A stretch of 64,000 nucleotides of DNA from NCBI GenBank assembly GCA_032622095.1, contig CP136069.1, positions 6,248,976-6,312,975 of the forward strand, read 5' to 3'. Below the pieces are notes generated by a model. That model saw nothing but the letters and a program-made list of their open reading frames with translations, searched no databases and was not told where the DNA came from. The translations under genes and the position numbers were made by a program. Source of the DNA: Siphonodentalium dalli. Lineage: Eukaryota; Mollusca; Scaphopoda; Gadilida; Siphonodentaliidae. Below, in pieces: positions 222 to 60,866 of this stretch. The stretch's first letter is position 1. Every line of letters starts with the position of its first letter.

Positions 222-692
222 TTAACCATTTACCCAACAAAACGCCCAGAAAAATAGCCCAAAATGAAGCTGCAACAGCCTAAATTATCTTGGGCCTGTC
301 TCAATAGAACCTTACAAATATGGATATCATTGGAACCGGTTCATTGACCACATTGTGATAGTTACAGTTATGCCCTGTGCCAATGCATTCTCTTATATAT
401 GCGAGTCGACCATAGGTCGCCTCGCATATATATAAGAGAATGCATTGGCCTAAAAAAAATCATTTTTTAACACTTTTTACCATTTTTTCTTACATTCTTT
501 AACAATTTTATAATTTTTTCTTATATTTTTTAACAATTTTTATAATATTTTTCTACATTCTTTGACAATTTTATCATTTTTAATATGTGTTAAGCCAATT
601 GATTCTCTGATATATGCGAGGCGACCTATGGTCGACTCGCATATATAAGAGAATGCATTGGCACAGGGCCGTTTTGTTGGGTGAAGGATTAA
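222..692. mobile_element. TTAA-flanked MITE, CCCTTTACCCAAC family, copy 1
   Basis: Starts TTAACCATTTACCCAAC and ends in its inverted counterpart GTTGGGTGAAGGATTAA. The TTAA on both sides matches the target preference of piggyBac-like transposases (family knowledge). Inside are two 69-bp palindromes in opposite orientation (about 376-446 and 593-661), separated by an AT-rich spacer. The termini are slightly diverged, so this is an older copy. There is no coding capacity. Confidence 0.8.
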
Positions 693-1649
693 TCCAAATT
701 GTAGTAAATCGATTTATCGAATCATTATCACACATGATGATTAATAAATCGATTTATCGAAATTTATCACGATGATGGGTGTGCACTAAAGGAATTCGAA
801 GAACACACTAGATGTATATTGCCTTAAGTAGAAACTCATGGTCAAAGTTTTTAGTAACCGTACAAGTGCAAATTACTTTATATAATAGATCTAGGTCAAT
901 ACAACTGTCAATTATTTATAATTGGCTTCGTGCTCGTTATGATTAATCAAGAACTGGTCATGTGATCAGCCATCAGCCATGATGGTCAATTGGAGAATGT
1001 GTTAACATTTTTAAATCACTTAAATGAAAATGTTCTTCAATTTCTTCTGTATCTCGTAATAATTTTACATATAGATGCAGCGGGTATATATATCCTTCAT
1101 TTATAGCATCTACTGCACACCGGTGGTGTGACGTAGCAAACTATTAATAATATTAATATAATTAAGCGGAATGTAAGAAGTGTTATGTTACACAATTGAT
1201 GACAATGATCAACAATGCGGCAAGATTCATCGAGTGAAATACTTTATGTTATAACCGATACATGTTATACCGACGTGGTTGTTTGGAGCATATCAAATGG
1301 GCGTGAGATAAAAACAACACTCACCTCTCGTGATCAATCGTTATTTATCTTTGATACTCGTGATTGCTGGACGACCAGGTGACTCTCTCTCGAGCAAATT
1401 ACAATATCCTTCCGAAATCACAGTCATGCAAAAACATTCCAGTGTGCGGTTATGTCCCTTTCGCGCGCGGACGTCGTGGGTTTGTGCATCAACTTTTTAT
1501 TGGATAATTGATGTTGCTGTGTCCACCATTTTTTACGATTATTAATGAAAATAATGGAATAAATGCAAGAAAATTTTCTATTACCTTACAGAAACCATTT
1601 ATATCGTGCCTAATATAATCTATAATATATGGGGTACATTTGTTTGCGA
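693..1649. other. Unassigned AT-rich non-coding sequence
   Basis: Apart from a short repeated motif ATCGATTTATCGA near 708-760, I see no repeat, exon borders or recognisable protein. A 71-codon open frame at 1330-1545 resembles no family I know and is probably chance. Confidence 0.5.
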
Positions 1650-2000
1650 CTAATTACGCTTAAGCGCAATCAATTGCACTTAAGCGCTATTAATTGTACT
1701 TAAGTCCAATTAATTGTACATAAGCAAAATTGAATTATGTTTGATCTTAATTAAATTGCGCTTGATCATAATTAAATTGCGCTTAATCGCAATGGAATTG
1801 CGCTTAATCACAATTGAATTATACTTAAGCGCAATTAAGTTTAATACATATGAAAACGGCCTCCCATAAGGATCGAGGTTTAGCCATATATGGACAGATA
1901 ATTCCGCTTCAGCTGAATAACATTTAAATTACGCTGAATCACATTGATTGCGCTGAAGCACAATTGCGCTTCACAATTTAACTGAAGCGCAATTATTGAT
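1650..2000. repeat. Degenerate palindromic AATTGCGCTTAAG repeats
   Basis: Many imperfect copies of CTTAAGCGCAATT and its complement occur in both orientations every 15-25 bases. Two blocks are separated by a short segment containing GGCCTCCCAT, which recurs after the second block near 2012. Origin unknown. Confidence 0.65.
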
Positions 2001-2217
2001 ATATGTGAATTTGGCCTCCCATGTTTCAGATAATGACATTTTTTATATTGAGGCTACCAGCCCCTGCCCCCAAGTGCTCCTGGGACCCGAATCCGTCTTT
2101 AAAAAAGACATGAAATTCAGTTTATGAATTTAGGGCGTAATACGACATTTGAAAGGGTGGGTCGGTGGGGGTTGTAGCCTCATATATATAGGATATCCAT
2201 GTGTGTCACCCTGTCCA

Positions 2218-2395
2218 ACATGGCTAGAGCTTCCTGAATTTTGCGAAAACCCTGTGCCAATGCATTCTCTTATATATGCGAGTCCCCCACAGGGAGACTC
2301 GCTTATATAAGAGAATGCGTTGGCCTAACAATATTTACCTTCACCTTGTAAGCCAGTGCATTTTCTTATATATGCGAGGTTCCCTATGGTAGAGA
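2218..2395. mobile_element. Truncated palindrome-pair MITE, CATGG/GTTTCGC end type
   Basis: An outer arm (AGCTTCCTGAATTTTGCG, complementary to the right end of the 4.9-kb copy) leads into a variant 69-bp palindrome at about 2258-2325. A second half-palindrome at 2350-2395 breaks off after GGTTCCCTATGG. The right half is missing. Confidence 0.65.
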
Positions 2396-2944
2396 TAATG
2401 CACAGCCACATGATCTTCAATGTTTCACAAGCGCAGCGCCCGTCATGAAAGGACAAAGAGTGAATAATGATGCGAATTGGGAGTTTTTGCAAAGGGGGGT
2501 TATCAGATTGTTGTTTTGAACAGCACAGAATACGTAGATAACTAGATATATATGACACGTGTACCTTTCCCATTCACCTCATGGTGCGATCAATATTGCT
2601 GTGATGCCATATCTCATATGACGACTCTCTCATTACGCAATCCTCATTATAGACCACGCTGATTAGTTGGTTGTTTACGTTATTTTCTTCGAAACCGGAC
2701 CAGGCGTCGGAATTTTGATCGTAAACTTCCACCAATTAATCCTGTCGATACAGCGGGAGCTTGTATAATGTCGGGTATATAAAGCAGGTTTAATCGCATC
2801 TGGTGCACTATTTAGTCGGTGTGAGATATTCCCTATGAAGTTTGATTGGTATGTTTGCACCTCAATACCACGAACTGTGGAGGGCATTCGTACTAACGTC
2901 ATGTGTCGGAAACACATTGCGTTGCATTGTATGACACTCAATTT

Positions 2945-3055
2945 AACTCTTGACACATAGAGAGCCCCACATAGACAACAGCAGACGACACTCCACAGTA
3001 CATGCTTCCATCTGGGTGAGGCTCCCTGTGGGTTAAACATTAATCTTTATATATC
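2945..3055. mobile_element. GAGCCCCAC hairpin element
   Basis: A foldback with arms AGAGAGCCCCACATAG and GTGAGGCTCCCTGTGGG surrounds a CAGCAGACGACACTCC-type centre. It is followed by TTAAACATTAATC and TATATCGCCTCGGTTATT, the tail shared with copies at 14.8 and 23.7 kb. Non-coding, MITE-like. Confidence 0.6.
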
Positions 3056-3934
3056 GCCTCGGTTATTAAGTTTCCTCCACCATTCAAAGTAGGGTCGTGA
3101 TGCCACATAAATTCTATTAGCGAATATGAAAGTTAATCGAACTATTCGTAAGTACCGCCCACCTGTATGCTACATGGTTACTGTTACTAAGCACCGAAAG
3201 CCATCTCAATCTCGCTAAAATGGCTTCCGATGAGAATGGACCGTGTGTTTCAAGTTCGCTTTTAAATGTGTTTTAAAACGCCATGTAGGTTACAAACGCC
3301 TAATTATTTCCCATAGGCGACAGTGTTAACTAGAAGTCCCGCCGGCCATGGGTTAAGCCTATTTGTACTTCAAGTGGTCAATTTTCCCTTAGAACGTCAT
3401 CCGCTGCACCAGTATGTGACGTCAAACGCGCCCTTTTCGGTATTGTTTTCAAACGATAATCTTGCATTTCCACAACTACCCCATTTACTGCACAAAAATC
3501 AGCAGCATAAAAATACCCAGACCCCTTCCATAACATCGGGACCCCACCAGACCCTTCCTGGACATCCAAACATGCATGATCGCCACATTTACGTAGGCTA
3601 TTATTTTATGTTCCCGCTTAGGGATATTTCCCTCAATGATAATCAACCAATCAGCAGCCAGATTTTTTTTTTATGCTGACTCGAGTTTCCCTACACAAAT
3701 TCAAGAAGCGTAACTCTATATAATTAGTTGCTTGTAACCTGTAACACGATAATATAGCTTCTCTCAGAGATTCACGAATTTCAAGATGCCTAACTCTGTT
3801 CTTGAAACTGGATAAAGCGCGAAGATCGGTGGGGACACAGCAACACCAAAAACAAAAAACAAAAAACATGTGATTGTTTGATTGATTCGTATGCCTTTAA
3901 TTGGCATGTCGGCCTGCCATCAAGTCTAATAATA

Positions 3935-4286
3935 TGGTGCCGGACATTTGCAGAATGAGGTCACAAGAGGGTGACGCTACCCCACACATCGAGCTATAGC
4001 ATTACTAAATTCACCCGCTGTGGACCTCATTCTGCTTAAGCCTCGATTTTCTTGGCCTGTTTTTCTTTAGTTTCTCCTTCACAAATATTCTTGTGCTTTT
4101 TTAGTTTAGTTTCTCTATATCCCAAAATTGACAGACGACACAATGAATAATCGAGGTGCCCAATGGGTGTACATCACAATATTCATCATCTGGGAACTTA
4201 AATCTGAGCCAAGGTCTCCCATAGCGTATTAAGCCATGCAGAATGGGACCTCAGAGGATGAGTTTGTTGACGCTATATCCGGTACC
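3935..4286. mobile_element. GCAGAATGAGG foldback composite, copy 1
   Basis: The left outer arm GGTGCCGGACATTTGCAG is matched by ATATCCGGTACC on the right. A GAATGAGG...CCTCATTCTGC hairpin at about 3950-4040 is followed by the shared interior (TTTCTCTATATCCC, AATCGAGGTGCCCAATGGG) and a decayed second hairpin near 4240. Confidence 0.65.
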
Positions 4287-4879: not shown

Positions 4880-5140
4880 TGAGGTATTAGCCCTAATGTT
4901 CATGACGGGAGCAGCATTAAATATCCTGTGCCAGTGCATCCTCTTATATACGCAAGTCTCTCATAGAGAGCCTTGCTTATATATGAGCATGTTTTGGCTT
5001 ACAAGGTCAATGTAAATATTGTTAGACCGATGTATTCTCTTATATATGCGAGGCTCTCTATGGGAGACTCGCATATATAAGAGAATTCATAGGCACAGGG
5101 TTTCGCAAAATTTCAGGAAGCTCCAGTCATGGAAGGGATA
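4880..5140. mobile_element. Palindrome-pair MITE, CATGACGGGAGC end type
   Basis: Left end contains TTCATGACGGGAGCAGC; right end contains GGAAGCTCCAGTCATGGAAGGG. Two variant 69-bp palindromes (about 4928-4995 and 5031-5097) carry the central sequence CTCTCTATGGGAGACTC instead of the usual CGACCTATGGTCG. This is a separate subfamily of the same module. Confidence 0.7.
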
Positions 5141-6125
5141 AATCTATCACAATAAATTCACACAATTTTCAGTATTTTTATGTATTTTTTAACTCATAAT
5201 ATTTAACATGTTGTGTTGACTTTTGGAAGTCATTTAGTAGAAAAGCCAAATCTTTCATAAGATATTCATCCATTCGAGATCCATGCTCTATCACAACATT
5301 AATTGTGCAATGGCACTTATTTGGTCCTAAGATATCTCCAATATTCCTGTCTGGTTTTTATTTTAGAATTTCCACAGCCCTATAGCACTATTCTCATATA
5401 TCATAGTATAATTTTGCTATTCTACACAAAAGAACAATTCACCTTTGTTTCACGGTGGAAAATGTCACCAAGTTTGTTGACCGTGCTTCCGTCAAATATC
5501 TCTTGTTGACAGTCATGTGACCTTGTTATGTATTTTCAGTCATGTGACCTTGTGATGTATTTTCGTACTATGAACGTTTCCAGTCCATCTGTAGCCATTG
5601 GGCGCGATTTTGCCATATTTCGTGACCGTAATACGAAATAGGATATAATATATTCATCCAGCTTAATCATATGCTGTTCATTAGATAATATTGCCACATT
5701 TCTGGCTATTGAAAGTAGGCAAGTGCATAATGTTGCTCTTATAAAAATAGTTTGTTTATATTACGAATTTGCTGGTGTTTTATCCCCACCAAATTCTAAT
5801 TTTACCAACATTGTAAATCCAAGCACTGCTAGGTTATTCATATTTTACTAGAATCTTCCACACAATAATATCTTCTTTTCATTGTTCCTCTTTACTATTT
5901 TTATATAACAAAATTATTTGTCTTGAAATAAGTTTTTCTTAGTGCTGCTATGGTGGACTGGTTTCGTTACTCCGTAACGTGTGTCTTCTTGTACGTTTGA
6001 TGTAATTAAATCTATTTATTTCTCTTCTTTTTAAGCTAGGCTATATACTTCGTGGATTGTATCAGTTTTCGTACCATTCAATATAGTTATCGTTCCTGTC
6101 AACACACTGCGCGCAGTACCCTGTG
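5141..6125. other. Unassigned AT-rich non-coding sequence
   Basis: A short direct repeat (AGTCATGTGACCTTGT, 5511 and 5539) is the only structure seen. No exon borders with a supporting reading frame were found. Confidence 0.5.
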
Positions 6126-6139
6126 TCAAGCCAAGATAA

Positions 6140-6626: not shown

Positions 6627-7091
6627 TGTGACCCGCCATATCAAATCCAGTCGTAAGTCGGGATTTTTTACCCTGTGCCAATGCATTCTCTTATGTATGT
6701 GAGTCGACCATAGGTCGCCTCGCATATATAAGAGAATGCATTGGCCTAACAATGTTTTATCATTTTTTTTAAATAAATGTTTCTTACAATTTTTAGGACA
6801 TAAAATAAAAACACATCTATTACCCTGCAGGGAGCCCCACACATATATGTATATAGAAGCATATAGAAGAGTGTCGACTGCTCATGTTTGTCTGGGGCTC
6901 TGTGTGGGTGAAATTATAAAATTGTTAAAGAATACAAGAAAAAATTATTAAAATTGTAAAAAATTGTTAGGCCAATGCATTCTCTTATATATGCGAGGCG
7001 ACCTATGGTCGACTCGCATATATAAGAGAATACGTTGGCACAGGGTAAAAAAAATCCCGACTTACGACTGGATTTGATATGGCGGGTCACA
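6627..7091. mobile_element. TGTGACCCGCC composite MITE, copy 1
   Basis: Terminal inverted repeats of about 45 bp run from TGTGACCCGCCATATC to GATATGGCGGGTCACA. Just inside lie two 69-bp palindromes in opposite orientation (about 6678-6746 and 6970-7038). The centre holds a degenerate hairpin of the GAGCCCCAC family (6828-6905). The target duplication is unclear; TA is possible. Open frames inside are by-products of the palindromes. Confidence 0.85.
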
Positions 7092-8477: not shown

Positions 8478-8747
8478 TTGACCACATTGTGATAGTTACA
8501 GCTATGCCCTGTGCCAATGCATTCTCTGATATATGCGAGTCGACCATAGGTCGCATCGCATATATAAGAGAATGCATTGGCCTAAAAAAAAAAATTCTTA
8601 CATTTAAAAAAAAACAATTATAACATTTTTCTACATTCTTTGACAATTTTATCATTTTTAATATGTGTTAAGCCAACGCATTCTCTTATATATGCGAGGC
8701 GACCTATGGTCGACTCGCATATATAAGAGAATGCATTGGCACAGGGA
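8478..8747. mobile_element. Fragment of CCCTTTACCCAAC-family MITE
   Basis: The internal block TTGACCACATTGTGATAG and a palindrome pair (8513-8582, 8674-8742) are present, but the TTAACCCTTTACCC termini on both sides are missing. The first palindrome has a base change (TCTGATAT). Confidence 0.75.
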
Positions 8748-9129: not shown

Positions 9130-9589
9130 TGTGACCCGCCGTATCAAATCCAGTCGTAAGTCGGGATTTTTTTTTACCCTGTGCCAATGCATTCTCTTAT
9201 ATATGCGAGTCGACCATATGTCGCCTCGCATATATAAGAGAATGCATTGGCCTAACAATTTTTTATCATGTTTTTTAAATAAATGTTTCTTACAATTTTT
9301 AGGACATAAAATAAAAAACACCCATTACCCTGCAGGGAGCCCCACACATATATAGAAGCATATAGAAGAGTGTCGTCTGCTCATGTTTGTCTGGGGCTCT
9401 GTATTGGTGAAATTATAAAATTGTTAAAGAATACAAGAACAAATTATTAAAATTGTAAAAAATTGTTAGGCCAATGCATTCTCTTATATATGCGAGGCGA
9501 CCTATGGTCGACTCGCATATATAAGAGAATGCATTGGCACAGGGTAAAAAAATCGCGACTTACGACTGGATTTGATATGGCGGGTCACA
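9130..9589. mobile_element. TGTGACCCGCC composite MITE, copy 2
   Basis: Same organisation as the 6.6-kb copy: terminal repeats TGTGACCCGCC/GGCGGGTCACA, palindromes at about 9182-9250 and 9471-9539, and a central GAGCCCCAC hairpin. The flanks are AAA on the left and AAT on the right, so no clear target duplication is visible. Confidence 0.85.
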
Positions 9590-10079: not shown

Positions 10080-10081
10080 TA

Positions 10082-11286: not shown

Positions 11287-11640
11287 AGGGATCACTGTAC
11301 ACTAACTCCGCCCATTTATGGGACCATCTCATATTATACTGAACATAATATATGCAACAAATGAATGAATTGGAGCCAAAGATAATTGCAAAATACACTC
11401 ATTTCCCTTTATGGACGATGCGAGCAGCATGGTAATTATAATGAAAATGAAATTATGACTGGAGTCTTTAAATCATGTTCATCATAATTGCCATGCTGTT
11501 TGCATCGTTCATAGGGCACATGAGTGTATATTGCACCTATCCATGGCTCAAATTCATTCCTTTGTTGCATTAATTCTTTTGAATATAAAAGGAGATGTTC
11601 ACATACATGGCCGGATTTAGTTTGTTCAGTATCCCTTTAA
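11283..11640. mobile_element. TTAA-flanked foldback MITE, AGGGATCACTG family, second of three
   Basis: Begins TTAAAGGGATCACTGTAC and ends GTTCAGTATCCCTTTAA. Most of the interior folds back: GGACCATCTC with GGAGATGTTC, and CAGCATGGTAATTATAATGA with its complement. It shares its terminal TTAA with elements on both sides. A partial copy lies at 60958-61130. Confidence 0.8.
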
Positions 11641-11852
11641 CCCTTTCAGTGCCAAGTCCGATTTTTTGTATCAACCCATATTTTCTTGATCATTTTTTCA
11701 AATTTATTGGTTATAATAATGTGATACATTGACGTAAGAGCTCTAAGAGCTCTTTCCATTAATGTATCACATTATTATAATCAATAAATTTTAAAAATGA
11801 TCAAGGAAATATGGGTTGATACAAAAATCGGACTTCGCACTGAAAGGGTTAA
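11637..11852. mobile_element. TTAA-flanked palindromic MITE, CCCTTTCAGTGC family, copy 1
   Basis: 216 bp, nearly a perfect palindrome from TTAACCCTTTCAGTGC to GCACTGAAAGGGTTAA, centred on GAGCTCTAAGAGCTC. A second full copy lies at 49143-49357. No coding capacity. Confidence 0.88.
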
Positions 11853-13077: not shown

Positions 13078-13365
13078 TCGGCCTGTCCCCAGAGAGTGAA
13101 TTTAGTTATGCTATCCCGCATAGCGGGCTAGCATCACCAAATTCACCCTCTGGGGACCTCATTCTGCTTAGGATCATCTTCTGAGAAGTATCTATAGTAT
13201 CAAATTAACTTTGTTTTTAGTTACATTTCCCTTCTAGGAAGTTTCTATATCCCCTAATTTGCAGAAGATAAAATTCATAATTGAGGTGCCCAATGGGTGA
13301 ACATCACCAACTTCAACTGGGGAACTGGTGGGGGCATTTAGTATAGAAGGGGTTAAAGTCATATC
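13078..13365. mobile_element. GCAGAATGAGG foldback composite, partial copy
   Basis: One hairpin (about 13085-13170; arms GTCCCCAGAGAGTGAATTTA and CTGGGGACCTCATTCTGC) plus the family interior (TATCCCCTAATTTGCAGAAG, GAGGTGCCCAATGGGTG). The second hairpin is absent. Confidence 0.65.
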
Positions 13366-14800: not shown

Positions 14801-14936
14801 TTAACCCTTTCGTGACCCACAGGGAGCCCCACAAAGACTGCACCAGACGACACTTCGTAGTGCATGCTTCCATATGTATGAGGCTCAATGTGGGTTAAAC
14901 GTTAAACTTTTTTATATCGCCTCGGTTATTATCCAT
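14801..14936. mobile_element. TTAACCC hairpin element, GAGCCCCAC family
   Basis: TTAACCCTTTCGTGACCCAC leads into GGGAGCCCCAC, a CAGACGACAC centre, GAGGCTCAATGTGGGTTAA, and the shared TATATCGCCTCGGTTATT tail. TTAA at the outer ends suggests the same mobilising system as the other TTAA MITEs. Confidence 0.65.
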
Positions 14937-15150
14937 TTCATGACGGGAGCTGCGCTGTTACAGCATTAACGATCATGTACGAGTGCATGCTATGATAATA
15001 TATGCGAATCTACCTCACATGTATATCAGGGAATCAAGGTAAATATTTTTAGACCAATATATTCTCTTCTATATGCAAGGTTCCCTATTGGAGACTCGCA
15101 TATAAAATACAATGCATTGGTTCATGGTTTTCGCAACATTTCAGCAAGCT
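14937..15150. mobile_element. Decayed palindrome-pair MITE, CATGACGGGAGC end type
   Basis: CATTTCATGACGGGAGC at the left, mutated palindromes at about 14980-15030 and 15055-15125, and TTTCGCAACATTTCAGCAAG with CAGTCATGGAAGGGTTAA at the right. The right end runs directly into a 33-bp tandem array. Confidence 0.65.
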
Positions 15151-15151
15151 T

Positions 15152-15305
15152 CAGTCATGGAAGGGTTAATAAGGGGGGGTAACTCCAGTCACGGAAGGGC
15201 TAATAAGGGAGGTAACTCCAGTCATGGAAGGGCTAATAAGGGAGGTAACTCCAGCCATGGAAGGGTTAATAAGGTAGATAACTCCAGTCATGGAAGGGTT
15301 AATAA
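15152..15305 (+). repeat. 33-bp tandem repeat of a MITE end, about 4.5 copies
   Basis: The unit consists of CTCCAGTCATGGAAGGG plus TTAATAAGGGAGGTAA. Its first part is the right terminus of the CATGACGGGAGC MITE, so the array is a local amplification of that end. As 33 is a multiple of three, the array is open in one frame (GGNSSHGRANK units); not treated as coding. Confidence 0.8.
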
Positions 15306-15624: not shown

Positions 15625-16087
15625 TGTGACCCGCCATGCATATCAAGTCCAGTCGTAAGTCGGGATTTGTTTTACCCTGTGCCAATGCATTCTCTTATAT
15701 ATGCGAGTCGACCATAGGTCGCCTCGCATATATAAGAGAATGCATTGGCCTAACAATTTTTTATCATGTTTTTTAAATAAATGTTTCTTACAATTTTTAG
15801 GACATAAAATAAAAAACATCCATTACCCTGCAGGGAGCCCCATACATATATAGAAGCATATAGAAGAGTGTCGTCTGCTCATGTTTGTCTGGGGCTCTGT
15901 ATGGGTGAAATTATAAAATTGTTAAAGAATACAAGAACAAATTATAAAAATTGTAAAAAATTGTTAGGCCAATGCATTCTCTTATATATGCGAGGCGACC
16001 TATGGTCGACTCGCATATATAAGAGAATGCATTGACACAGGGTAAAACAATCCCGACTTCCGACTGGATTTGATATGGCGGGTCACA
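15625..16087. mobile_element. TGTGACCCGCC composite MITE, copy 3
   Basis: Terminal repeats TGTGACCCGCC/GGCGGGTCACA, palindrome pair at about 15680-15748 and 15968-16036, and a central GAGCCCCAC hairpin (15833-15905). TA occurs on both flanks. Confidence 0.85.
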
Positions 16088-17033
16088 TATGTATTGAGGA
16101 AGAGATAGACCATCATACATTTTACAACTTTGTCTGAAGATTTTAGCAACCACTTTTCACATATGTTCATTATGGGAGCTTTACAGGGGTACACTTTTTA
16201 CACACTTACAAGTATTTTATACAATTTTTTATTCTTGATTACTAGTGTTTTCTTTGGAGAGGGTACTAATGTCATACCATGTCATGAATTTCTACTCTGA
16301 CTACGCCCGTAGATATCATATTCCACCCATTCAAAATATAGGAACATTTTGATGTTATGACCTGTTCTGATGGGAATTTTATAACATTGAACACACAACG
16401 CAAGGTGCATATTTCGTTGTTAATACTCGTTCCTTAATAATCTAGCTCTCGATTGCATGATTTTTGTGACTTTTGTGAGTTGATATCGCAATAAACGTGG
16501 AAATATTTCCCGGGAGAAATGCCATAATGATTGTGAGCGATGAAAATCAAAATCGGCTCAACAAAGTCACCTAAATCATGCAAACTCAAGCTGGAACCTT
16601 CACGTACTGTGAAATACATTATTACGGAAATGGTATTAACGAAGATATATATCAGCGGCACTGTTTTTCTTTCTCTCTCAATGTTATAAAGTTCCCAGGT
16701 TTTGATCTGCATGGAGTATGGTCACTACGGGTGTACCGTGAGTAGATACGCATGACGTGTTCTAGGTTAGATGGGCATGTACAAATGCATGGGGTTTGGT
16801 AATGAATTATAAACCCATAATATACGCACTGGTGATATATACTAGACTTCTTATCACAATGGCATTATATTATGTGTAGCACTATGCCATGGAATGCAAC
16901 ATTTTATCAGAAAACAGTGTAAACCGCTCATTGATTCGATTATTGATTCTATATCGACGCCAAGATCATGTCTCGTCGTGTTCGATTATTGATCGATTAT
17001 TGTGTTTGAATGATTGTTTATTTTTAACCCTTT
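16088..17033. other. Unassigned non-coding sequence
   Basis: No repeat or exon supported. A 92-codon minus-strand frame (16434-16712) has no motif I recognise. Confidence 0.45.
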
Positions 17034-17411
17034 ACCCAACAAAACGGTCAACAACGCCCAAATAAAGCTTCAACAGCCTAAAATATCTTCGGTCTGTCTC
17101 AATAACACCATACAAATATGGATATCATTGGAACCGGTTCATTGACCACATTGTGATGGTTACAGTTATGCCCTGTGCCAATGCATTCTCTTATATATGC
17201 GAGTCGACCATAGGTCGCCTCGCATATATAAGAGAATGCATTGGCCTTATAACAATTTTTATAATATTTTTCTACATTCTTTGACAATTTTATCATTTTT
17301 AATATGTGTTAAGCCAATGCATTCTCTTATATATGCGAGGCGACCTATGGTCAACTCGCATATATAAGAGAATGCATTGGCACAGGGCCGTTCTGTTGGG
17401 TAAAGGGTTAA
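17034..17411. mobile_element. TTAA-flanked MITE, CCCTTTACCCAAC family, copy 2
   Basis: A clean copy: TTAACCCTTTACCCAAC at the left, GTTGGGTAAAGGGTTAA at the right. Interior blocks AGCTTCAACAGCCTAAAATA and TTGACCACATTGTGATGG precede a palindrome pair (17178-17246, 17311-17379). Confidence 0.9.
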
Positions 17412-18626: not shown

Positions 18627-19025
18627 TTAACCCTTTACCCAACAAACCGGCCAAAACCGGCCAAATAAAGCTTCAACAGCCTAAAATATCTTCGGTCTGT
18701 CTCAATAGAACCATACAAATATGGGTATCATTGGAACCGTCTCCTTGACCACATTGTGATAGTTACAGTTATGCCCTGTGCCAATGCATTCTCTTATATA
18801 TGCGAGTCGACCATAGGTCGCCTCGCATATATAAGAGAATGCATTGGCCTAAAAAAAATCTTTTTTTAACACTTTTTACCATTTTTTCTTACATTCTTTA
18901 ACAATTTTATAATTTTAATGTGTTAAGCCAATGCATTCTCTTATATATGCGAGGCGACCTATGGTCGACTCGCATATATAAGAGAGTGCATTGGCACAGG
19001 GCCCTTCTGTTGGGTAAAGGGTTAG
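18627..19025. mobile_element. TTAA-flanked MITE, CCCTTTACCCAAC family, copy 3
   Basis: TTAACCCTTTACCCAAC at the left, TTGGGTAAAGGG at the right, followed by TTAG instead of TTAA (point change). Palindrome pair at about 18779-18847 and 18927-18995. Confidence 0.88.
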
Positions 19026-20617: not shown

Positions 20618-22078
20618 CACCCTTTCTATACTAAAGCATCATTGAAAAGTAGTTATCCCATAGGACATGTTCAGATAATAAGTTTAACCCTTTCTATACT
20701 AAAGTATCATTGACGAGTAGTTATCACATAGGAAATGTTCAGATAATAAGTTTAACCCATTCTATATTATAATAAGTTTAACCCTTTCTATACGAAAGTA
20801 TCATTGACGAGTAGTTATCCCATAGGAAATGTTCCGATAATAAGTTTAACCCATTCTATACTATAATAAGTTTAACCATACTAAAGTATCATTGACGAGT
20901 AGTTATCCCATAGGAAATGTTCCGATAATAAGTTTAACCCATTCTATACTATAATAAGTTTAACCCTTTCTATACTAAAGTATCATTGACGAGTAGTTAT
21001 CCCATAGGAAATGTTCAGATAATAAGTTTAACCCATTCTATATTATAATAAGTTGAACCCTTTCTATACGAAAGTATCATTGACGAGTAGTTATCCCATA
21101 GGAAAAATGTTCAGATAATAAGTTTAACCCATTCTATACTATACTAAGTTTAACCATACTAAAGTATCATTGACGAGTAGTTATCACATAGGAAATGTTC
21201 CGATAATAAGTTTAACCCATTCTATATTATAATAAGTTTAACCCTTTCTATATGAAAGTATCATTGACGAGTAGTTATCCCATAGGAAATGTTCAGATAA
21301 TAAGTTTAACCCATTCTATATTATAATAAGTTTAACCCTTTCTATACTAAAGTATCATTGACGAGTAGTTATCCCATAGGAAATGTTCAGATAATAAGTT
21401 TAACCCATTCTATATTATAATAAGTTTAACCCTTTCTATACTAAAGTATCATTGACGAGTAGTTATCCCATAGGAAATGTTCAGATAATAAGTTTAACCC
21501 ATTCTATATTATAATAAGTTTAAACCTTTCTATACTAAAGTATCATTGACGTAGTTATCACATAGGAAATGTTCAGATAATAAGTTTAACCCATTCTATA
21601 TTATAATAAGTTTAAACCTTTCTAAAGTAAAGTATCATTGACGAGTAGTTATCACATAGGAAATGTTCAGATAATAAGTTTAACCCATTCTATATTATAA
21701 TAAGTTTAAACCTTTCTATACTAAAGTATCATTGACGAGTAGTTATCCCATAGGAAATGTTCAGATAATAAGTTTAACCCATTCTATATTATAATAAGTT
21801 TAAACCTTTCTATACTAAAGTATCATTGACGAGTAGTTATCCCATAGGAAATGTTCAGATAATAAGTTTAACCCTTTCTATACTAAAGCATCATTGACGA
21901 GTAGTTATCACATAGGAAATGTTCAGATAATAAGTTTAACCCTTTCTACACTAAAGCATCATTGACGAGTAGTTATCACATAGGAAATGTTCAAATAATA
22001 AGTTTAACCCTTTCTATACTAAAGTATCATTGACGAGTAGTTATCCCATAGGAAATGTTCAGATAATAAGTTCAACAT
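20618..22078 (+). repeat. 68-bp satellite, forward-orientation block
   Basis: The unit runs TTAACCCTTTCTATACTAAA, CATTGACGAGTAGTTATCCC, ATAGGAAATGTTCAGATAAT, AAG. The first units have a 68-bp period; most later ones carry an extra CCATTCTATATTATAATAAG segment, giving about 93 bp. Roughly 16-18 units. The same monomer appears inverted at 24.0-26.7 and 27.9-30.2 kb. Confidence 0.9.
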
Positions 22079-23787: not shown

Positions 23788-23915
23788 TAACCATTTCATG
23801 AACCATAGAGAGCCCCATGTATTCTGCAACAGACGACACTCTGTAGTGCATGATTCCATCTGTGTGGGGCTCCCTGTGGGTTAATCGCTAAACTCTATAT
23901 ATCGCCTCGGTTATT
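23788..23915. mobile_element. GAGCCCCAC hairpin element, tandem copy b
   Basis: A second copy lies directly after copy a: AACCATAGAGAGCCCCATG, CAACAGACGACACTCTGTAG, GTGGGGCTCCCTGTGGGTTAA and the same tail. The head-to-tail arrangement suggests duplication of the whole element. Confidence 0.65.
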
Positions 23916-23934: not shown

Positions 23935-26715
23935 GGACCAAAATCAATGGTGGGAAATGTTCAGACAATAATTTCAACAAACATCCTATAGTCGTTTGTT
24001 GAACTTATTTTCTGAACATTTCACAAGGGAACACCTCATCAATGGGTATTTAGTATAGAAAGGGTTTAACTTATTATCTGAACATTTCCTATGGGATAAC
24101 TACTCATCAATGATGCTTTAGTATTGAAATGATTAAACTTATTATCTGAACATTTCCTATGGGATAACTATTCATCAATGATGGTTCAGTATAGAAAGGG
24201 TTTAACTTATTATCTGAACATTTCCTATGTGATAACTACTCATCAATGATGCTTTAGTATTGAAATGATTAAACTTATTATCTGAACATTTCCTATGTGA
24301 TAACTACTCGTCAATGATGCTTTATTATTGAAAGGATTATACTTATTATCTGAACATTTCTCATGAGATAACTACTCATCAATGAGGCTTTAGTATAGAA
24401 AGGGTTAAACTTATTATCTGAACATTTCCTGTGGGATAACTACTCATCAATGATGCTTTAGTATAGAAAGGGTTAAATTTATTATCTGAACATTTCCTAT
24501 GGGATAACTACTCATCAATGATGCTTTAGTATTGAAATGATTAAACTTATTATCTGAACATTTCCTATGGGATAACTACTCATCAATGATGGTTCAGTAT
24601 AGAAAGGGTTTAACTTATTATCTAAACATTTCCTATGGGATAACTACTCATCAATGATGGTTCAGTATAGAAAGGGTTAAACTTATCTGAACATTTCTCA
24701 TGAGATAACTACTCATCAATGATGCTTTAGTATAGAAAGGGTTAAACTTATTATCTGAACATTTCCTATGTGATAACTACTCATCAATGATGCTTTAGTA
24801 TTGAAAGGATTAAACTTATTATCTGAACATTTCCTACGTGATAACTACTCATCAATGATGCTTTAGTATAGAAAGGATTAAACTTATTATCTGAACATTT
24901 CCTACGTGATAACTACTCATCAATGATGCTTTAGTATTGAAATGATTAAACTTATTATCTGAACATTTCCTATGTGATAACTACTCATCAATGATGCTTT
25001 AGTATTGAAAGGATTAAACTTATTATCTGAACATTTCCTATGGGATAACTACTCATCAATGATGGTTCAGTATAGAAAGGGTTTAACTTATTATCTGAAC
25101 ATTTCCTATGGGATAACTACTCATCAATGATGGTTCAGTATAGAAAGGGTTAAACTTATCTGAACATTTCTCATGAGATAACTACTCATCAATGAGACTT
25201 TAGTATAGAAAGGGTTAAACTTATTATCTGAACATTTCCTGTGGGATAACTATTCATCAGTGATGCTTTAGTATAGAAATGGTTAGACTTATTATCTGAA
25301 CATCTCCTATGGGATAACTACTCATTAATGATGCTTTAGTATAGAAAGGATTAAACTTATTATCTGAACATTTCCTACGTGATAACTACTCATCAATGAT
25401 GCTTTAGTATAGAACGGATTAAACTTATTATCTGAACATTTCCTACGTGATAACTACTCATCAATGATGCTTTAGTATTGAAATGATTAAACTTATTATC
25501 TGAACATTTCCTATGTGATAACTACTCATCAATGATGCTTTAGTATTGAAAGGATTAAACTTATTATCTGAACATTTCCTATGGGATAACTACTCATCAA
25601 TGATGGTTCAGTATAGAAAGGGTTAAACTTATTATCTGAACAGTTCCTATGGGATAACTACTCATCAATGATGCTTTAGTATAGAAATGGTTAAATTTAT
25701 TATCTGAACATTTCCTATGGGATAACTATTCATCAGTGATGCGTTAGTATAGAAAGGGTTAGACTTATTATCTGAACATCTCCTATGGGATAACTACTTA
25801 TCAATGATGCTTTAGTATAGAAAGGGTTAAATTTATTATCTGAACATTTCCTATGGGATAACTACTCGTCGATGATGCTTTAGTATAGAAAGGGTTAAAC
25901 TTATTATCTGAACATTTCCTATGGGACAACTACTCATCAATGATGCTATAGTCTAGAAAGGGTTAAACCTATTATCTGAACATCTCCTATGGGATAACTA
26001 ATTAACAATGACTCTTTAGTATAGAAAGGGTTAAACTTATTATCTGAATATTTCCTATGGGATAACTATTCATCAATGATGCTATAGAATAGAAAGCGTT
26101 AAACGTATTATCTGAACATTTCCTATGGCATAACTACTCATCAATGATGCTTTAGTATAGAAAGGGTTAAATTTATTATCTGATCATTTCCTATGGGATA
26201 ACTATTCATCAATGATGCTTTAGTATAGTAAGGGTTAGACTTAATATCTGAACATTTCCTATGTGATAACTACTCACCAATGAGGCTTTAGTATATAAAT
26301 GGTTAAACTTATCTGAACATTTCTTATGAGATAACTACTCATCAATGATGCTTTAGTATAGAAAGGGTTAAACTTATTATGTGAACATTTCCTATGGGAT
26401 AACTACTCATCAATGATGCTTTAGTATAGAAATGGTTAATCTTATTATCTGAACAGTTCCTACGGGATAACTACTCATCAATGATGCTTTAGTGTAGAAA
26501 GGGTTAAACTTAGTATCTGAACAGTTCCTATGGGATAACTACTCATCAATGATGCTTTGGTATAGAAGGTGTTAAACTTGTTATCTGAAAATTTCCTATA
26601 GGGTAACTAATCATCAATGATTCTTCAGTATAGAAGGTTCTAAACTTATTATCTGAACATATCCTAATTGGTAACTACTCATCAATGGGTATTTAGCATA
26701 CAAAAGGGTTAAACT
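23935..26715 (-). repeat. 68-bp satellite, reverse-orientation block 1
   Basis: About 40 units of AAACTTATTATCTGAACATT, TCCTATGGGATAACTACTCA, TCAATGATGCTTTAGTATAG, AAAGGGTT. Variants differ at the GATGCTT/GATGGTT and GGG/GTG positions, and sub-blocks alternate, indicating local higher-order duplication. Confidence 0.92.
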
Positions 26716-30162: not shown

Positions 30163-30211
30163 CTGGACATATCAAGTCCACAGATGGTTCGCGTCTTAGT
30201 GGAATATATTT

Positions 30212-30591: not shown

Positions 30592-30826
30592 TAGTCGCTG
30601 TATATCGATGTCTGGGAAAAGAAATAATGTGGGGTCGAACATTGTATGGTTCTTTAAGATGCCGCTTCAACATAAATCATAGTACATCAATACCCCCTCC
30701 AGTCCCCATTTAGATTCGATATTAATCTGCTGTTTATTTTCGGACGGAAGGCCAACCGAACCGTAGCAATGAAGCAACAAATCAGCGTGAATTGAAAGAC
30801 GGCCAAATTGAAATCATATGAATGAA

Positions 30827-34807: not shown

Positions 34808-35267
34808 TGTGACCCGCCATATCAAATCCAGTCGGAAGTCGGGATTTTTTTACCCTGTGCCAATGCATTCTCTTATATATGCGAGTCGACCATAGGTCGC
34901 CTCGCATATATAAGAGAATGCATTGGCCTAACAATTTTTTATCATGTTTTTTAAATAAATGTTTCTTACAATTTTTAGGACATAAAATAAAAAAAAACAT
35001 CCATTACCCTCCAGGGAGCCCCACATATATATAGAAGCATATAGAAGAGTGTCGTCTGCTCATGTTTGTCTGGGGCTCTGTATGGGTGAAGTTATAAAAT
35101 TGTTAAAGAATACAAGAAAAAATTATTAAAATTGTAAAAAAGTGTTAAGCCATGCATTCTCTTATATATGCGAGGCGACCTATGGTCGACTCGCATATAT
35201 AAGAGAATGCATTGGCACAGGGTAAAACAATCCCGACTTCCGACTGGATTTGATATGGCGGGTCACA
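34808..35267. mobile_element. TGTGACCCGCC composite MITE, copy 4
   Basis: Terminal repeats TGTGACCCGCC and GGCGGGTCACA, palindromes at about 34859-34927 and 35149-35216, and a central GAGCCCCAC hairpin. The right palindrome has lost a base (AAGCCATGC). Confidence 0.85.
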
Positions 35268-36017: not shown

Positions 36018-36257
36018 GTCATATGCTGTTGTAGAATATCGTAACCAGATTTCCATTATTTGACTGCCTGCTGAGTACGAAATAATGTTACAAATGGCAG
36101 ACAAGCCGGAATGCAAAAATAGATGGCTTGTCAGTGATATATTTGTGTACAGTTATCAGGTAAATGTATCAAATAAATATATATGCACACTAGTCCCAGA
36201 TACTCATTAATTGTGTTGCATAGTCAGTGAGTGGCTTCACTTCTCGTCCCGTTTGTC

Positions 36258-36652
36258 ATTTGCAAAATGAGGTCCCCAGAGGGTGAATTTAGTGATGCTA
36301 TCCCGCACAGCGTGATAGCATAACCAAATTCTCCCTCTGGAGACCTCATTCTGCTTAGGCCTCATCTTCTGTGAAGTATCTATAGTATCAAATTAACATT
36401 GTTGTTAGTTACGTTTCCCTTATGGGAAGTTTCTATATCCCCTAATTTGCAGAAGATAAAATGCCAATGGGTGAACATCACCAACTTCAACTGGGGAACT
36501 TCAATCTGATCCTAGGTCTACTATAGCAGTTGGGGGCCTAAGCAGAATGAGGTCCCTAGAGGGTGAATTTGGTGACGCTAGCCCGCTGTGTGGGATAGCG
36601 TCATTAAAATCACTCTCTGGGGACCTGAATCTGCAAATGACAGACAAGCTAT
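36258..36652. mobile_element. GCAGAATGAGG foldback composite, copy 2
   Basis: Outer arms TTTGTCATTTGCAAAATGAG and CTGCAAATGACAGACAAG are inverted. Hairpins lie at about 36268-36356 and 36541-36640. Between them is the family interior with TATCCCCTAATTTGCAGAAG. Both inner borders read GCTTAGGCC/GGCCTAAGC, forming a further inverted pair. Confidence 0.8.
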
Positions 36653-41518: not shown

Positions 41519-42169
41519 CAGTGTCATTGACACTTTCATTCAGGATTTAGTCGGAAATATGGCCTGTTGCCATTCATCGGAAAGCTCTCGACGAGAGCTT
41601 TCCGATGAATGGCAACAAGCCATATTTCCGACTAAATCCTGAAAAATTACCCATAATTCTGCTGTGGTTAAGTGGTCAATTACTTTGGGCATTACTGTAT
41701 GAGCTTATATAGTTGTTATCATTTCTTAGCGGACTTGGGCAGTTGGGATATAGCATTTGGGTTTTGTTTAGTGGTGTAAATATACCACGATCGCTCGTTT
41801 GATCATTTATTTTGTTTGTTGTGTTGGCTATTGTCAATGTTCACCCCTGCTTCCTATATGAAGAACAACATGTTTTTACAGCGTAAAAATTAAATTATCA
41901 TTTAAGACATGCAGCTTGCGTTAATTCTACCAAGGAACGGATGTTAGCAGTTATTGTCCATGTGATGCCGAGTTTTCATCGAAACTAAGCACCGATGGGA
42001 TCACCATAATTATGTCGATCGGGGTCACCATGTATCGATCGAGGTCACCATGTATGGATCGGGGTCACCATGTGTATCGGCTCATTGACGATATAGATCC
42101 CCAATAAGACTTCGTCGGCATCAGATTATATTTTATATTTCATCAGCTAGCGACCAGCCTGAAAACATA

Positions 42170-42612
42170 GTGCCGGATATTTGAAGAATGAGGTTCACAG
42201 AGGGTGTACTTAGTGACACTACCCTACACAGCGGGCTAGCATCACTAAATTCGACTTCTGGTGGCCTCATTCTGCTTAGGCCTCATCTTCTCTGGAAAGT
42301 ATATTTATGATCAAATTAACAAGATTTTTAGTTTTTTTAGAAACTTCTTCAGAAAAAAAGGTTTTCGTTTTTAGATTAGTTTCTCCATATCCCCAAATTG
42401 GCAGACGACACGATGCATAATCGAGGTGCCCAATAGGCGCACATCACCATCTTCGCATCTGGAACTTAAATCTGAGTCTAAGTATCCCATATCAGATGAA
42501 ACCATGCAACATGAGGTCCACGGAGGATGACTTTGATGACGTTAACCCGTTGTGCGGGGTAGCACCACTAAATTCACCCTCTGGGAACCTCATTCTGCAA
42601 ATATCCGGCACC
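42170..42612. mobile_element. GCAGAATGAGG foldback composite, copy 3
   Basis: Outer arms GTGCCGGATATTTG and CAAATATCCGGCAC match exactly. Two hairpins (about 42187-42275 and 42505-42598) flank the family interior. The outer arm differs from the 36.3- and 42.9-kb copies (GTCATTTGC type) but resembles the 3.9-kb one. Confidence 0.82.
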
Positions 42613-42668
42613 ACGCGTTCAGTCTTGTCAGCGACGACTATAATAAAGGACCCAGAGTAATCGTTATC

Positions 42669-42924: not shown

Positions 42925-43179
42925 CAAGCCTTGAAATAGTGTGTCTGTCATTTGCAGAATGAGGTCCCCAGAGGGTGAATTTAGTTATGCTACCCCGCAT
43001 AGCGGGCTAGCATCACCAAATTCACCCTCTATGGGACCTCATTCTGCTTACAACTCAACAGAATGAGGTTCCCAGAGGGTGAATTTGGTGATGCTAACCC
43101 GCATAGCGGGCTAGCATCACCAAATTCTCCCTCTTGGGACCTCATTCTGCAAATGACAGGCACACTATTTCAAGGCTTG
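42925..43179. mobile_element. GCAGAATGAGG foldback composite, compact copy
   Basis: The outer inverted arms CAAGCCTTGAAATAGTGTG and CACACTATTTCAAGGCTTG enclose two complete hairpins, at about 42954-43047 and 43059-43149, separated by only about 12 bases; the usual interior is missing. The second hairpin is a 91-bp near-perfect palindrome around ACCCGCATAGCGGGCT. Confidence 0.88.
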
Positions 43180-43622: not shown

Positions 43623-44011
43623 TTAACCCTTTACCCAACAGAAGGGCCCTGTGCCAATGCATTCTCTTATATATGCGAGTCGACCATAGGTCGCCTCGCA
43701 TATATAAGAGAATGCATTGGCTTAACACATTAAAAATTATAAAATTGTTAAAGAATGTAAGAAAAAATGTTTAAAAAGATTTTTTTTAGGCCAATGCATT
43801 CTCTTATATATGCGAGGCGACCTATAGTCGACTCGCATATATAAGAGAATGCATTGGCACAGGGCATAACTGTAACTATCACAATGTGGTCAAGGAGCCG
43901 GTTCCAATGATATCCATATTTGTATGGTTCTATTGAGACAGACCGAAGATATTTTAGGCTGTTGAAGCTTTATTTGGCCGGTTTTGGCCGGTTTGTTGGG
44001 TAAAGGGTTAA
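43623..44011. mobile_element. TTAA-flanked MITE, CCCTTTACCCAAC family, copy 4
   Basis: Complete copy, opposite orientation to the 17.0-kb one. TTAACCCTTTACCCAAC and GTTGGGTAAAGGGTTAA are intact and TTAA is duplicated. Palindromes at about 43653-43721 and 43791-43859. The 54 bases immediately to its left reappear inside the 48.2-kb element. Confidence 0.92.
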
Positions 44012-48229: not shown

Positions 48230-48792
48230 TTAACCCTTTACCCAACAGAAGAGCCCTGTGCCAATGCATTCTCTTATATATGCGAGTCGACCATAGGTCG
48301 CCTCGCATATATAAGAGAATGCATATATAAGAGAATGCATTGTTTGTCTTCTGTTATGATATACATGTTCCCATATAGGTGGCATTTAACATGTTAACCC
48401 TTTACCCAACAGAAGGGCCCTGTGCCAATGCATTCTCTTATATATGCGAGTCGACCATAGGTCGCCTCGCATATATAAGAGAATGCATTGGCTTAACACA
48501 TTACAAATTATAAAATTGTTAAAGAATGTAAGAACAAATGGTAAAAGGTGTTAAAAAAAGATTTGTTTAGGCCAATGCATTCTCTTATATATGCGAGGCG
48601 ACCTATTGTCGACTCGCATATATAAGAGAATGCATTGGCACAGGGCATAACTGTAACTATCACAATGTGGTCAAGGAGCCGGTTCCAATGATATCCATAT
48701 TTGTATGGTTCTATTGAGACAGACCGAAGATATTTTAGGCTGTTGAAGCTTTATTTGGCCGGTTCTGGCCGGTTTGTTGGGTAAAGGGTTAA
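48230..48792. mobile_element. Chimeric CCCTTTACCCAAC-family MITE carrying captured flank DNA
   Basis: An outer left end (TTAACCCTTTACCCAAC, 48230) runs through one palindrome to about 48338, then 54 bases identical to the left flank of the 43.6-kb element, then a second complete left end (TTAA at about 48394) and the rest of the element to GTTGGGTAAAGGGTTAA at 48792. It thus has two left ends and one right end. Confidence 0.85.
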
Positions 48793-49142: not shown

Positions 49143-49357
49143 TTAACCCTTTCAGTGCCAAGTCCGATTTTTGTATCAACCCATATTTCCTTGATCATTT
49201 TTCAAATTTATTGATTATAATAATGTGATACATTGATGGAAAGAGCTCTTAGAGCTCTTTCCATCAATGTATCACATTATTGTAATCAATAAATTTGAAA
49301 AATGATCAAGGAAATATGGGTTGATAAAAAAATCGGACATGGTACTGAAAGGGTTAA
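49143..49357. mobile_element. TTAA-flanked palindromic MITE, CCCTTTCAGTGC family, copy 2
   Basis: 215 bp, TTAACCCTTTCAGTGCC to GTACTGAAAGGGTTAA, palindromic around GAGCTCTTAGAGCTC. Closely matches 11637-11852, so the family moved fairly recently. Confidence 0.88.
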
Positions 49358-57390: not shown

Positions 57391-57402
57391 GCACTATCTA
57401 CT

Positions 57403-57865: not shown

Positions 57866-58009
57866 ATATCTTGCTACTTTCAGTAAGTACTGTAGACTGG
57901 AACAGCAATCAGTTGGAAATGTCACGTCATGGAGAAATTAACTTTGAGTTATCATTTAGAAAAAAATCCAAATTGAGAGGGGGGAGTCAATTAATTTGCG
58001 AGTGTAATG

Positions 58010-58082
58010 CAGGGAGCCCCATAAATGTAGCTGATTATATTGCTGACTGTCGTCTGCTCACATCTGTGTGATGCTCCATAAG
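58010..58082. mobile_element. GAGCCCCAC hairpin element, isolated
   Basis: AGGGAGCCCCATAAATGTAG, GACTGTCGTCTGCTCACATC and GTGTGATGCTCCATAAGG form the family hairpin without the TTAACCC ends. Confidence 0.55.
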
Positions 58083-58590: not shown

Positions 58591-58704
58591 ACAAACCTTG
58601 TCAACCTTCGCACATTTTTAAAAACTGTGTAACCTTCAGCACTTTTTGTGGTGAGAGCGTCACCTTCAGCGTAACTAACATCTATTTATTCTTGTATGTT
58701 CATT

Positions 58705-58765
58705 ATCGTAACCCACAAACGTCAAAGTCCACCATTATCGTAACCCACAAACGTCAAAGTAATGA
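58705..58765 (+). repeat. ~28-bp tandem duplication
   Basis: CATTATCGTAACCCACAAAC followed by GTCAAAGT occurs twice in tandem. Confidence 0.8.
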
Positions 58766-59169
58766 AAACTCAATCAGCACTTTTTCATTATTTCATATTC
58801 ACAATCCTCAGATTTTGAAACATATGTAGCAACATTATCTGATTTATCAGTTTCCATTGTCAGTTACAAATTGTCGTTCCACATATTTGGCAGCTACTGA
58901 TGTTTTGTAGCCACATATATTGGCAGCCACATATGTGGCAATTCTTCTCTGTGGAGATTCCTGAATATAGAACAATTTGAACATTCAGACTCCAGATATT
59001 CATTACTCTTTTAATTTTCCCTTGCGTTCACCATACATTTCGGACACCAAACATTCAATATTTAGAGCAATGTTTTGCTAAACATTACACAATTCGGCTA
59101 TTTTCGGTACATGTCTTAAATTGGAACATTGGTTGCATTTTCATTTTAATAACAAATATTTCGATTGGG

Positions 59170-59245
59170 TATGTCACCCTAATTTGCAGAACATAAAATT
59201 CATAATCGAGGTGAGTCACTAAATTCACCCTCTGGGAACCTCAAT
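59170..59245. mobile_element. Remnant of GCAGAATGAGG foldback composite
   Basis: CTAATTTGCAGAACATAAAA, CATAATCGAGGTGAG and AATTCACCCTCTGGGAACCT match the family interior and hairpin arm, joined by a deletion. Confidence 0.55.
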
Positions 59246-59507
59246 CAAAGTATCGTCGCTGATCTTTAATATTTTTGACCGCAACAAAAAGTTGAATCGA
59301 CACAACTACAGCCCTCATTGTTTTGCAGGTATAGAAGCATAAAAGGTAAAAATGGAGTTATATGGTGTCAAACGGGGCGTCTATAACATTCATATGTTGC
59401 TTTCAGAAGTGTGGAATTTCATATCGTTGCAGTCAGTAAAACTATGTTGAAGTAATTGACATCTTATAGAGGTCGTTGCCCTGCAGTTTACTGCACAAAA
59501 TGTTCTT

Positions 59508-59722
59508 TGTAACCACGTGAAATCACATGGCAACATCACATATTCCTAGTAACCACATGTTTTGCCTTGCAATCAAGTGTTATTTCATAGTAACCACATG
59601 TTCTTGCCTAGCAATCAAGTGCTATTGCATAGCAACCATATTTTCGTGCCTAGAAACCACGTGTTCTTACATAGTAACCACGTGTTCTTACGTAGTAACC
59701 ACGTGTTCTTGCCTGGTAACTG
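59508..59722 (+). repeat. ~21-24-bp degenerate tandem repeat, about 9 copies
   Basis: Unit TAGTAACCACATGTTCTTGC with variable ends. Two overlapping + frames of about 70 codons arise from it and are not called as genes. Confidence 0.82.
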
Positions 59723-60418
59723 CAATATTACGGAAGGTATGTTTTATTATATGAATTATGTATTGTGTTAATATGTATGCCGGCATTAAATATACACATT
59801 TGCAATATTGATAGAGCATGCACAATTTGATGTCTTTCTCTTTCTAAATAGTTTTTATTTGTAGTGCTTTTACCTCTCTATTAATATATTTGCCTTGCTG
59901 TATGTTTTATATATTTTCATTCTATAACATGCCTCAATTTCAGGAAGAGGATACTACTGTTTTATATCAGATGAGATTAACGCATGTCCATCGCCGCTTT
60001 AGATTGTCAACATTGTTTCAGGTGTTCCCGATTGAAAGCAACTATAAAGTATATCCAATGTGTGACATGTTACCGTCATATATTTAGTTAAAATATAACA
60101 ATTGTTCTACTAAATCAGTTCCATGGCGTGGTTAATGGTTGTGTTTCTCTAAAGTGTAAACGTCACCTGCATGATTAGTGAATTTACGTTGAATAGTTAA
60201 AGTGACTATTTCCAAATTCCAATATTCCAAATTTTAATTTGCTGTTGTATTTGCCAATTAGGATAATTCTAAACTATTGGCATATTTCTTTGAGGTAGAG
60301 TTTCGGTTGTTTTTCATCTGCCACTCTCTAAACACATAACGTGTTCTTCTTAACTATGTTTAGATTCCAAATAGTGTTTCGTTGATATGAAATCGACCAC
60401 AAAATATATCTGTACCTT
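59723..60418. other. Unassigned non-coding sequence
   Basis: AT-rich. No exon, RNA gene or repeat supported. Confidence 0.45.
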
Positions 60419-60866
60419 TTAACCCTTTACCCAATAAAACGGCAAAAAACGCCCAAATAAAGCTTCAACAGCCTAAAATATCTTCGGTCTGTCTCAAAAA
60501 CACCATACAAATATGGATATCATTGGAACCGGTACATTGACCACATTGTGATGGTTACAGTTATGCCCTGTGCCAGTGCATTCTCTTATATATGCGAGTC
60601 GACCATAGGTCGCCTCGCATATATAAGAGAATGCATTGGCATTTTACCATTTTTTCTTACATTCTTTAACAATTTTATAATTTTTTCTTACAGTTTTTAA
60701 CAATTTTTATAATATTTTTCTACATTCTTTGACAATTTTATCATTTTTAATATGTGTTAAGCCAATGCATTCTCTTATATATGCGAGGCGACCTATGGTC
60801 GACTCGCATATATAAGAGAATGCATTGGCACAGGGCCGTTCTGTTGGGTAAAGGCCAAAGGGTTAA
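60419..60866. mobile_element. TTAA-flanked MITE, CCCTTTACCCAAC family, copy 5
   Basis: TTAACCCTTTACCCAATAAAA at the left; GTTGGGTAAAGGCCAAAGGG then TTAA at the right, where AAAGG is duplicated. Palindromes at about 60572-60640 and 60761-60829. Confidence 0.88.

Follow-up and report, generated by a model that had tools for sequence, protein, structure and literature searches.

A palindrome-bearing core that appears to be shared by short elements with differing ends in Siphonodentalium dalli

Introduction

How does one palindrome come to lie, as an inverted pair, inside short mobile elements whose ends look unrelated? The question is raised by a 64-kb window of contig CP136069.1 of Siphonodentalium dalli (the window being the whole stretch of DNA analysed, from which all copy counts are taken). 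It contains short elements of about 270-470 bp with differing ends that resemble miniature inverted-repeat transposable elements (MITEs) and carry a palindrome module of 69 bp. Three families are distinguished here by their terminal inverted repeats (TIRs) and are called A, B and C. Judged from their letters, the cores of the three families appear to have a common origin, and their ends look unrelated. As an answer to the opening question we propose, with confidence that is evenly balanced, that the core was exchanged between end families, was constrained in the lineages that spread and underwent a change at the stem tip guided by its own hairpin.

The palindrome module and the elements that carry it

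The consensus module consists of 27-bp perfect arms, a T/C mismatch, five further pairs (CGACC/GGTCG) and a 3-base ATA loop, exactly the architecture described in an earlier sequence-only reading of this DNA. The arm end GAGAATGCATTGGC occurs 55 times at up to two mismatches in the whole window, compared with a mean of 0.44 and a maximum of 3 in 100 shuffles, and this count rules out chance palindromes. Twelve inverted pairs (24 modules) align end to end, which agrees with the at least 12 pairs counted in that reading; seven are associated with a family A core, four with family B and one with the copy at 30205-30592. One of the seven A-core pairs (8478-8746) is without A ends, and 30205-30592 is a B core that lacks B ends. 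The consensus is matched letter for letter by ten of the 24 modules. Besides the 12 pairs, decayed relatives of the module are also found.

Family A ends in TTAA followed by CCCTTTACCCAACARAACGG (also given as TTAA plus CCCTTTACCC) and is piggyBac-like. TTAA is present on both sides in five of the six full copies and the sixth has TTAA/TTAG, the truncated and half copies not being counted. The definition of piggyBac-type MITEs in the accessible part of PMC2872659 includes a TIR of 12-19 bp with CC[C/T]T as its terminal motif. The TTAA target duplication of such MITEs is seen in family A and the CCCTTTACCCAACARAACGG ends carry the terminal motif, in a TIR that is slightly longer. The full copies on the forward strand are 222-692 (TTAA on both sides; modules 379-449, with a 2-bp insertion, and 594-662), 17024-17411 (17177-17245, 17313-17381), 18627-19025 (the TTAA/TTAG copy; 18780-18848, 18927-18995) and 60419-60866 (60572-60640, 60761-60829), and those on the reverse strand are 43623-44011 (43653-43721, 43790-43858) and 48394-48792 (48424-48492, 48571-48639). 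The truncated member is the A core without A ends at 8478-8746 (forward strand; modules 8513-8581 and 8672-8740). The family is asymmetric, with about 120 bp on one side that have no counterpart on the other. The spacer contains subrepeats of about 31 bp (461-581 and 60641-60748), and its length differs among copies because their number varies.

The TIRs of family B begin with TGTGACCCGCC and are flanked by 2-bp repeats; none of the four copies has a TTAA target duplication. All lie on the forward strand: 6627-7091 (flanks TA/TA; modules 6677-6745, 6971-7039), 9130-9589 (AA/AA; 9183-9251, 9470-9538), 15625-16087 (TA/TA; 15681-15749, 15968-16036) and 34808-35267 (TA/TG; 34859-34927, 35148-35216). 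The reverse-strand copy at 30205-30592 carries two perfect modules (30222-30290, 30508-30576) and is 94% identical to the B interior over 215 bp, while the TGTGACC ends of family B are absent. A portion of the B interior (GGGAGCCCCA...GGGGCTC, 15822-15904) has weak relatives standing alone at 23803-23885 and 58008-58076 (71-74% identity, among the matches listed), and these solitary relatives suggest that an additional insert may be present in the B core.

Family C is older and decayed, with CATGACKGGAGC ends. All four copies are read on the forward strand with approximate ends: 2195-2450 (module 2256-2324, with a partial module from 2352 on), 4885-5141 (modules 4930-4998, 5026-5094), 14930-15170 (right module about 15052-15122, left one degenerate) and the C-like element 61200-61320, in which a single module (61214-61276) can be aligned and a CCCGTCATGA stretch lies close to the end. 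When the ends were inspected for TTAA and CCYT, one right end, that of the 14930 copy, read GGAAGGGTTAA and GGGGTTAA stood beside another; the remaining ends are decayed. The window contains two exact occurrences of the string CATGACGGGAGC. A 33-bp tandem array at 15152-15305, whose unit includes an end of family C together with TTAA and a little flanking sequence, looks as if it had grown out of a MITE end. The claim that three terminal families have the module in common therefore holds, with the reservation that the CATGACGGGAGC family is decayed: in its six alignable modules the stem-tip letters differ from those of A and B, and none has perfect arms.

Foldback elements are recognized by long TIRs that can form a stem and by TIRs built of internal tandem repeats. 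Stem-forming arms of up to 120 nt, 98% complementary, are present here. The only internal tandem repeat reported in a TIR is a slipped arm at 48305-48340, and the tandem units of family A sit in the spacer.

Extent of the shared core

The shared unit reaches beyond the palindrome, so that the 69-bp module proposed as the common unit is indeed common but is part of something larger. CCCTGT borders every displayed A and B module on the outside, and likewise two of the four displayed C modules. On the inner side, B modules have CTAACA or TTAACA, as do two of these four C modules and the short side of A; on the long side of A the inner edge is mostly CTAAAA. The module consensuses of A and B show 0/138 differences. 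When three A copies were compared with one B copy, the alignable parts of the A spacer matched the B interior with 81-88% identity over 23-60 bp, and two of these parts have 7/53 and 8/56 mismatches versus the 0/138 in the modules (p = 9e-5 and 3e-5). An interior part that is better conserved between families than the TIRs, as in the coral elements called CMITEs, is represented here by the modules and not by the spacer. It is the match of module, CCCTGT, inner edges and A/B spacer pieces that argues for common descent of the cores. A single terminal family that diverged by point mutation was rejected, as the A, B and C ends look unrelated by eye and the core matches.

Constraint on the module

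The A and B comparisons used six of the seven A copies (leaving aside the truncated 8478 copy and the half copy at 48230) and the four B copies together with 30205. The p values from Fisher tests are guides, as these tests assume independent sites and the spacer sequences are simple. In family A, changes are found in 5/648 arm cells, in 52/1098 cells of the outer parts and in 31/441 spacer cells; the corresponding figures for family B are 5/539 in the arms versus 13/442 and 25/1089. Sites with a variant common to at least two A copies number 0/138 in the modules and 18/264 elsewhere (p = 0.0006). Private changes, pooled over A and B, amount to 10/1187 in the arms and 63/3070 in the rest (p = 0.005), and within A the difference between arms and outer parts has p = 0.014. 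The slower change of arms than of spacers put forward in the earlier reading is borne out for family A, but is weaker and not significant in family B. The module has been held nearly constant in spreading lineages, as shown for A and as a trend in B.

The near-identity of A and B modules, with ten of 24 perfect, would also be expected if the cores had been exchanged too recently for the modules to diverge, in which case no constraint would be needed. We consider this improbable, because within the A elements themselves the spacers and outer parts are more diverged than the modules and because the more diverged C family keeps identical 27-bp arms in its consensus, although individual C copies differ from that consensus at 5-12 of 56-69 positions (7-17%, six modules).

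Matched changes in the stem

The C consensus has the same 27-bp arms as A and B and differs from the A/B consensus at four of the 69 positions (30, 31, 39 and 40). These four differences are two base pairs changed on both sides, G-C to T-A and A-T to C-G. Under a simple model, the chance that four random differences form two complementary pairs is about 6e-5. Covariation was evaluated in an alignment of 22 modules, made up of 16 of the 24 modules of the A, B and 30205 type and the six decayed C modules; the eight left out all equal the consensus, and neither the degenerate module at about 14975 nor the broken module at 48260 was included. Seven pairs are changed on both sides, a number reached by 2/500 shuffles, and the covariation score of 0.118 was reached by 0/500. 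Slid controls gave at most 4 such pairs and a score of at most 0.042. Template switching in replication is given as the explanation for matched changes of several bases in the two arms of a stem in the available part of PMC8794818; the likeness lies in the matched arm changes, and the difference in that they are described there for RNA genes and not for transposons.

Preservation of pairing between C and A/B is also what a hairpin RNA would produce, if transcribed modules yielded microRNA-like or piRNA products that preserve the stem. The module forms a stable hairpin of the kind found in pre-microRNAs: one module folds as a single 69-nt RNA hairpin (-54.3 kcal/mol, z -14.3), and a permissive Rfam search with one element returned 31 matches up to E 10, many of them to microRNA precursor models, the best being MIR841 (90.4 bits, E 7.5e-20). 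All 31 fall below the gathering scores (MIR841 needs 200), as any long foldback would give, and the window has no Rfam match at the gathering threshold, so a known microRNA gene was rejected. The DNA strand also folds strongly (-35.4, z -15.6), and the loss of pairing in individual copies does not suggest an RNA role at each locus. The folding and Rfam results argue neither for nor against small RNAs as such, and a function as hairpin RNA as the reason for the kept stem is judged highly improbable. The earlier suggestion of a hairpin of pre-microRNA size is right as to the stable 69-nt fold, but the microRNA idea drawn from it rests on foldability.

Traces of exchange and the origin of the core

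A composite locus at 48230-48792 bears on how cores may be exchanged. It begins with a half element of family A on the reverse strand (48230-48342), which comprises the end of the short side and a single module whose slipped arm contains a 16-bp duplication, and which stops at an ATTG junction. The junction joins it to a foreign flank (48343-48393, forward strand), all 51 bp of which recur in the flank of the 43623 element (55 identical bp if the shared ATTG is counted), and this is followed by the full A element at 48394-48792, which is 95.5% identical to the full element at 43623. We read the ATTG junction as a probable template switch at a palindrome arm, with an event order reconstructed from the letters. 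A candidate conversion patch is found in the B element at 34808, where the second module has the A-like inner edge GGCTTAACAC in place of the GGCCTAACAA of the other three B copies.

The mechanism we favour, exchange under constraint, would run as follows. The MITE core would consist of CCCTGT, the palindrome and a short inner edge, then the spacer and then the mirror image. On at least three occasions, exchange among elements, by ectopic template switching or conversion, would have placed this core between terminal repeats that are unrelated to one another. Mobilization would be due to transposases encoded elsewhere, of piggyBac type for A and perhaps C, and to an enzyme with a 2-bp target for B. 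The constancy of the module in multiplying lineages would most simply reflect an aid in cis to the multiplication of the element, and the matched pairs at the stem tip could stem either from copying of one arm from the other through the hairpin or from selection on pairing.

Several points weigh against this proposal. The copies are few and all from one window, and the Fisher tests assume independence of sites. In B, shared-variant sites (0/138 in modules versus 5/321 elsewhere) follow the same trend as in A without being significant (p = 0.33), B singletons are not significant either (p = 0.39 and 0.15), and A singletons compared between arms and spacer give p = 0.098. The A-like edge of the 34808 element amounts to two substitutions beside a 1-bp deletion, and the composite locus is one single event. 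Ten of the 16 both-side cells are the two pairs common to five C rows, perhaps one inherited change, and relatedness alone can exceed shuffles without any structure; moreover, the matched-pair result rests on C copies that are 7-17% off their own consensus. Finally, by inspection, no substitution listed for the A and B modules is compensated in the opposite arm or recurs in the partner module. The A/B substitutions thus give no sign that the palindrome is corrected locally once inserted, and such correction is not frequent; pairing in A and B persists because the copies lie close to one master sequence. Since the changes between C and A/B are matched and the A/B substitutions are uncompensated, pairing seems to be kept at the level of spreading lineages and not of single copies.

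An alternative to exchange is nested insertion, in which the core is a transposon in its own right that inserted near the centre of three host MITEs and then multiplied as composites. The copy at 30205-30592 can be taken as such a core, since it has the B core without the B ends and its flanks are readable with TA on both sides. Hosts are conceivable as well, because interior-free foldback elements exist: 49143-49357 is a nearly perfect 215-bp palindrome without an interior, with TTAACCCTTT ends (TTAACCCTTTCAGTGCC) and a 93% identical copy at 11637-11852, possibly a pure foldback relative of piggyBac-type MITEs, and the hosts of B and C could have been palindromes of this sort. A point against this is that the B and C hosts would need to be palindromes struck near the centre. 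The coral CMITE-IN formed by such an insertion, according to the accessible text of PMC2872659. Among the matches listed, however, the window contains no core-free A, B or C host, and core-free C ends occur only in the 33-bp array beside 15170; furthermore, the letters beside the core show no target duplication common to A, B and C. We regard nested insertion as a serious rival, although a rather unlikely one.

The paired, subterminal position of the modules is also reminiscent of the palindromic sites of piggyBac and piggyBat, near-end palindromes that are bound by transposase domains. In the part of PMC11707139 at hand, piggyBac ends bear identical 19-bp palindromes and the site is bound by cysteine-rich domains. 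Such sites are short, and a module of 69 bp with 27-bp arms is far longer than that of piggyBac; in addition, the identical 69-bp hairpin is present in family B, the flanks of which are not TTAA. That the palindrome is a subterminal binding site of a transposase is very unlikely for these reasons.

Coding capacity, database matches and other repeats

No coding capacity was found in the module-bearing elements. The longest stop-to-stop frame listed outside the tandem arrays has 131 aa, and ten frames of 103-131 aa from the window, a selection of the frames of that size, gave no Pfam match above the cut-off. Exact searches returned no match for four arm or end patterns in viral contigs and none for one such pattern in prokaryote genomes, and phage records contained no match to one family A element. 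Six sequence strings from the elements were not found in the papers searched. The GGGAGGTAACTC motif may point to a mollusc.

Long related tandem arrays with units of 68 to 94 bp occupy 20675-22076, 23998-26715 and 27937-30152, and array-like units lie in one flank of three module elements (8478, 30205 and 34808). A further set of inverted-repeat elements, at 36251-36645, 42152-42629, 42925-43179, 13085-13326 and 3923-4275, has CTGTCATTTGCA-like stretches in common and shows mutual identities of 68-95%.

Relation to known systems

In a literature search judged by title and abstract, nothing closer was found than the following precedents. The CMITEs of the coral Acropora (PMC2872659, in the part accessible) likewise comprise piggyBac-type TTAA MITE families whose TIRs differ and whose shared interior is better conserved than the TIRs, and they also form tandem arrays and a composite, CMITE-IN. 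They differ in that the families of Table 1 have TTAA and CCYT-type ends, whereas B has other ends and 2-bp flanks. Compared by description, CMITEs are about 100 bp long with a 75-bp core, and the text available mentions no inverted palindrome pair. The origin of their shared core is called a mystery there. New beyond the coral CMITEs are the inverted palindrome pair, the matched stem changes and a family with non-TTAA flanks.

A conserved module common to different kinds of mobile element is also known from the MITE MER6, which carries the highly conserved domain of V short interspersed nuclear elements (V-SINEs). There the module moves from a V-SINE to a Mariner-derived MITE, and the abstract of PMC6887750 has no palindrome. 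Chimeric copies of Galileo in Drosophila, as far as the accessible text of PMC3573991 goes, resemble the present case in their long TIRs and in the swapping of terminal repeats and interiors between subfamilies; unlike here, Galileo belongs to the P superfamily, has transposase-bearing copies and shows exchange inside one transposon.

Conclusions

A further-reaching idea, which we think unlikely, is that the palindrome core serves as a transferable module for amplification and, as a sub-element, survives by moving from one vehicle to another. If this were true, the hairpin would drive template switching, so that the core gains new ends, including those of another transposase class, and copying guided by pairing would keep its arms matched.

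The core bears on the question of how MITE families acquire new ends and interiors. It occurs in elements of TTAA type as well as in others that end differently, with matched changes between families, and one locus preserves an apparent switch junction at a palindrome arm. Together, these features make the exchange of modules testable through copy counts and trees in a single genome.

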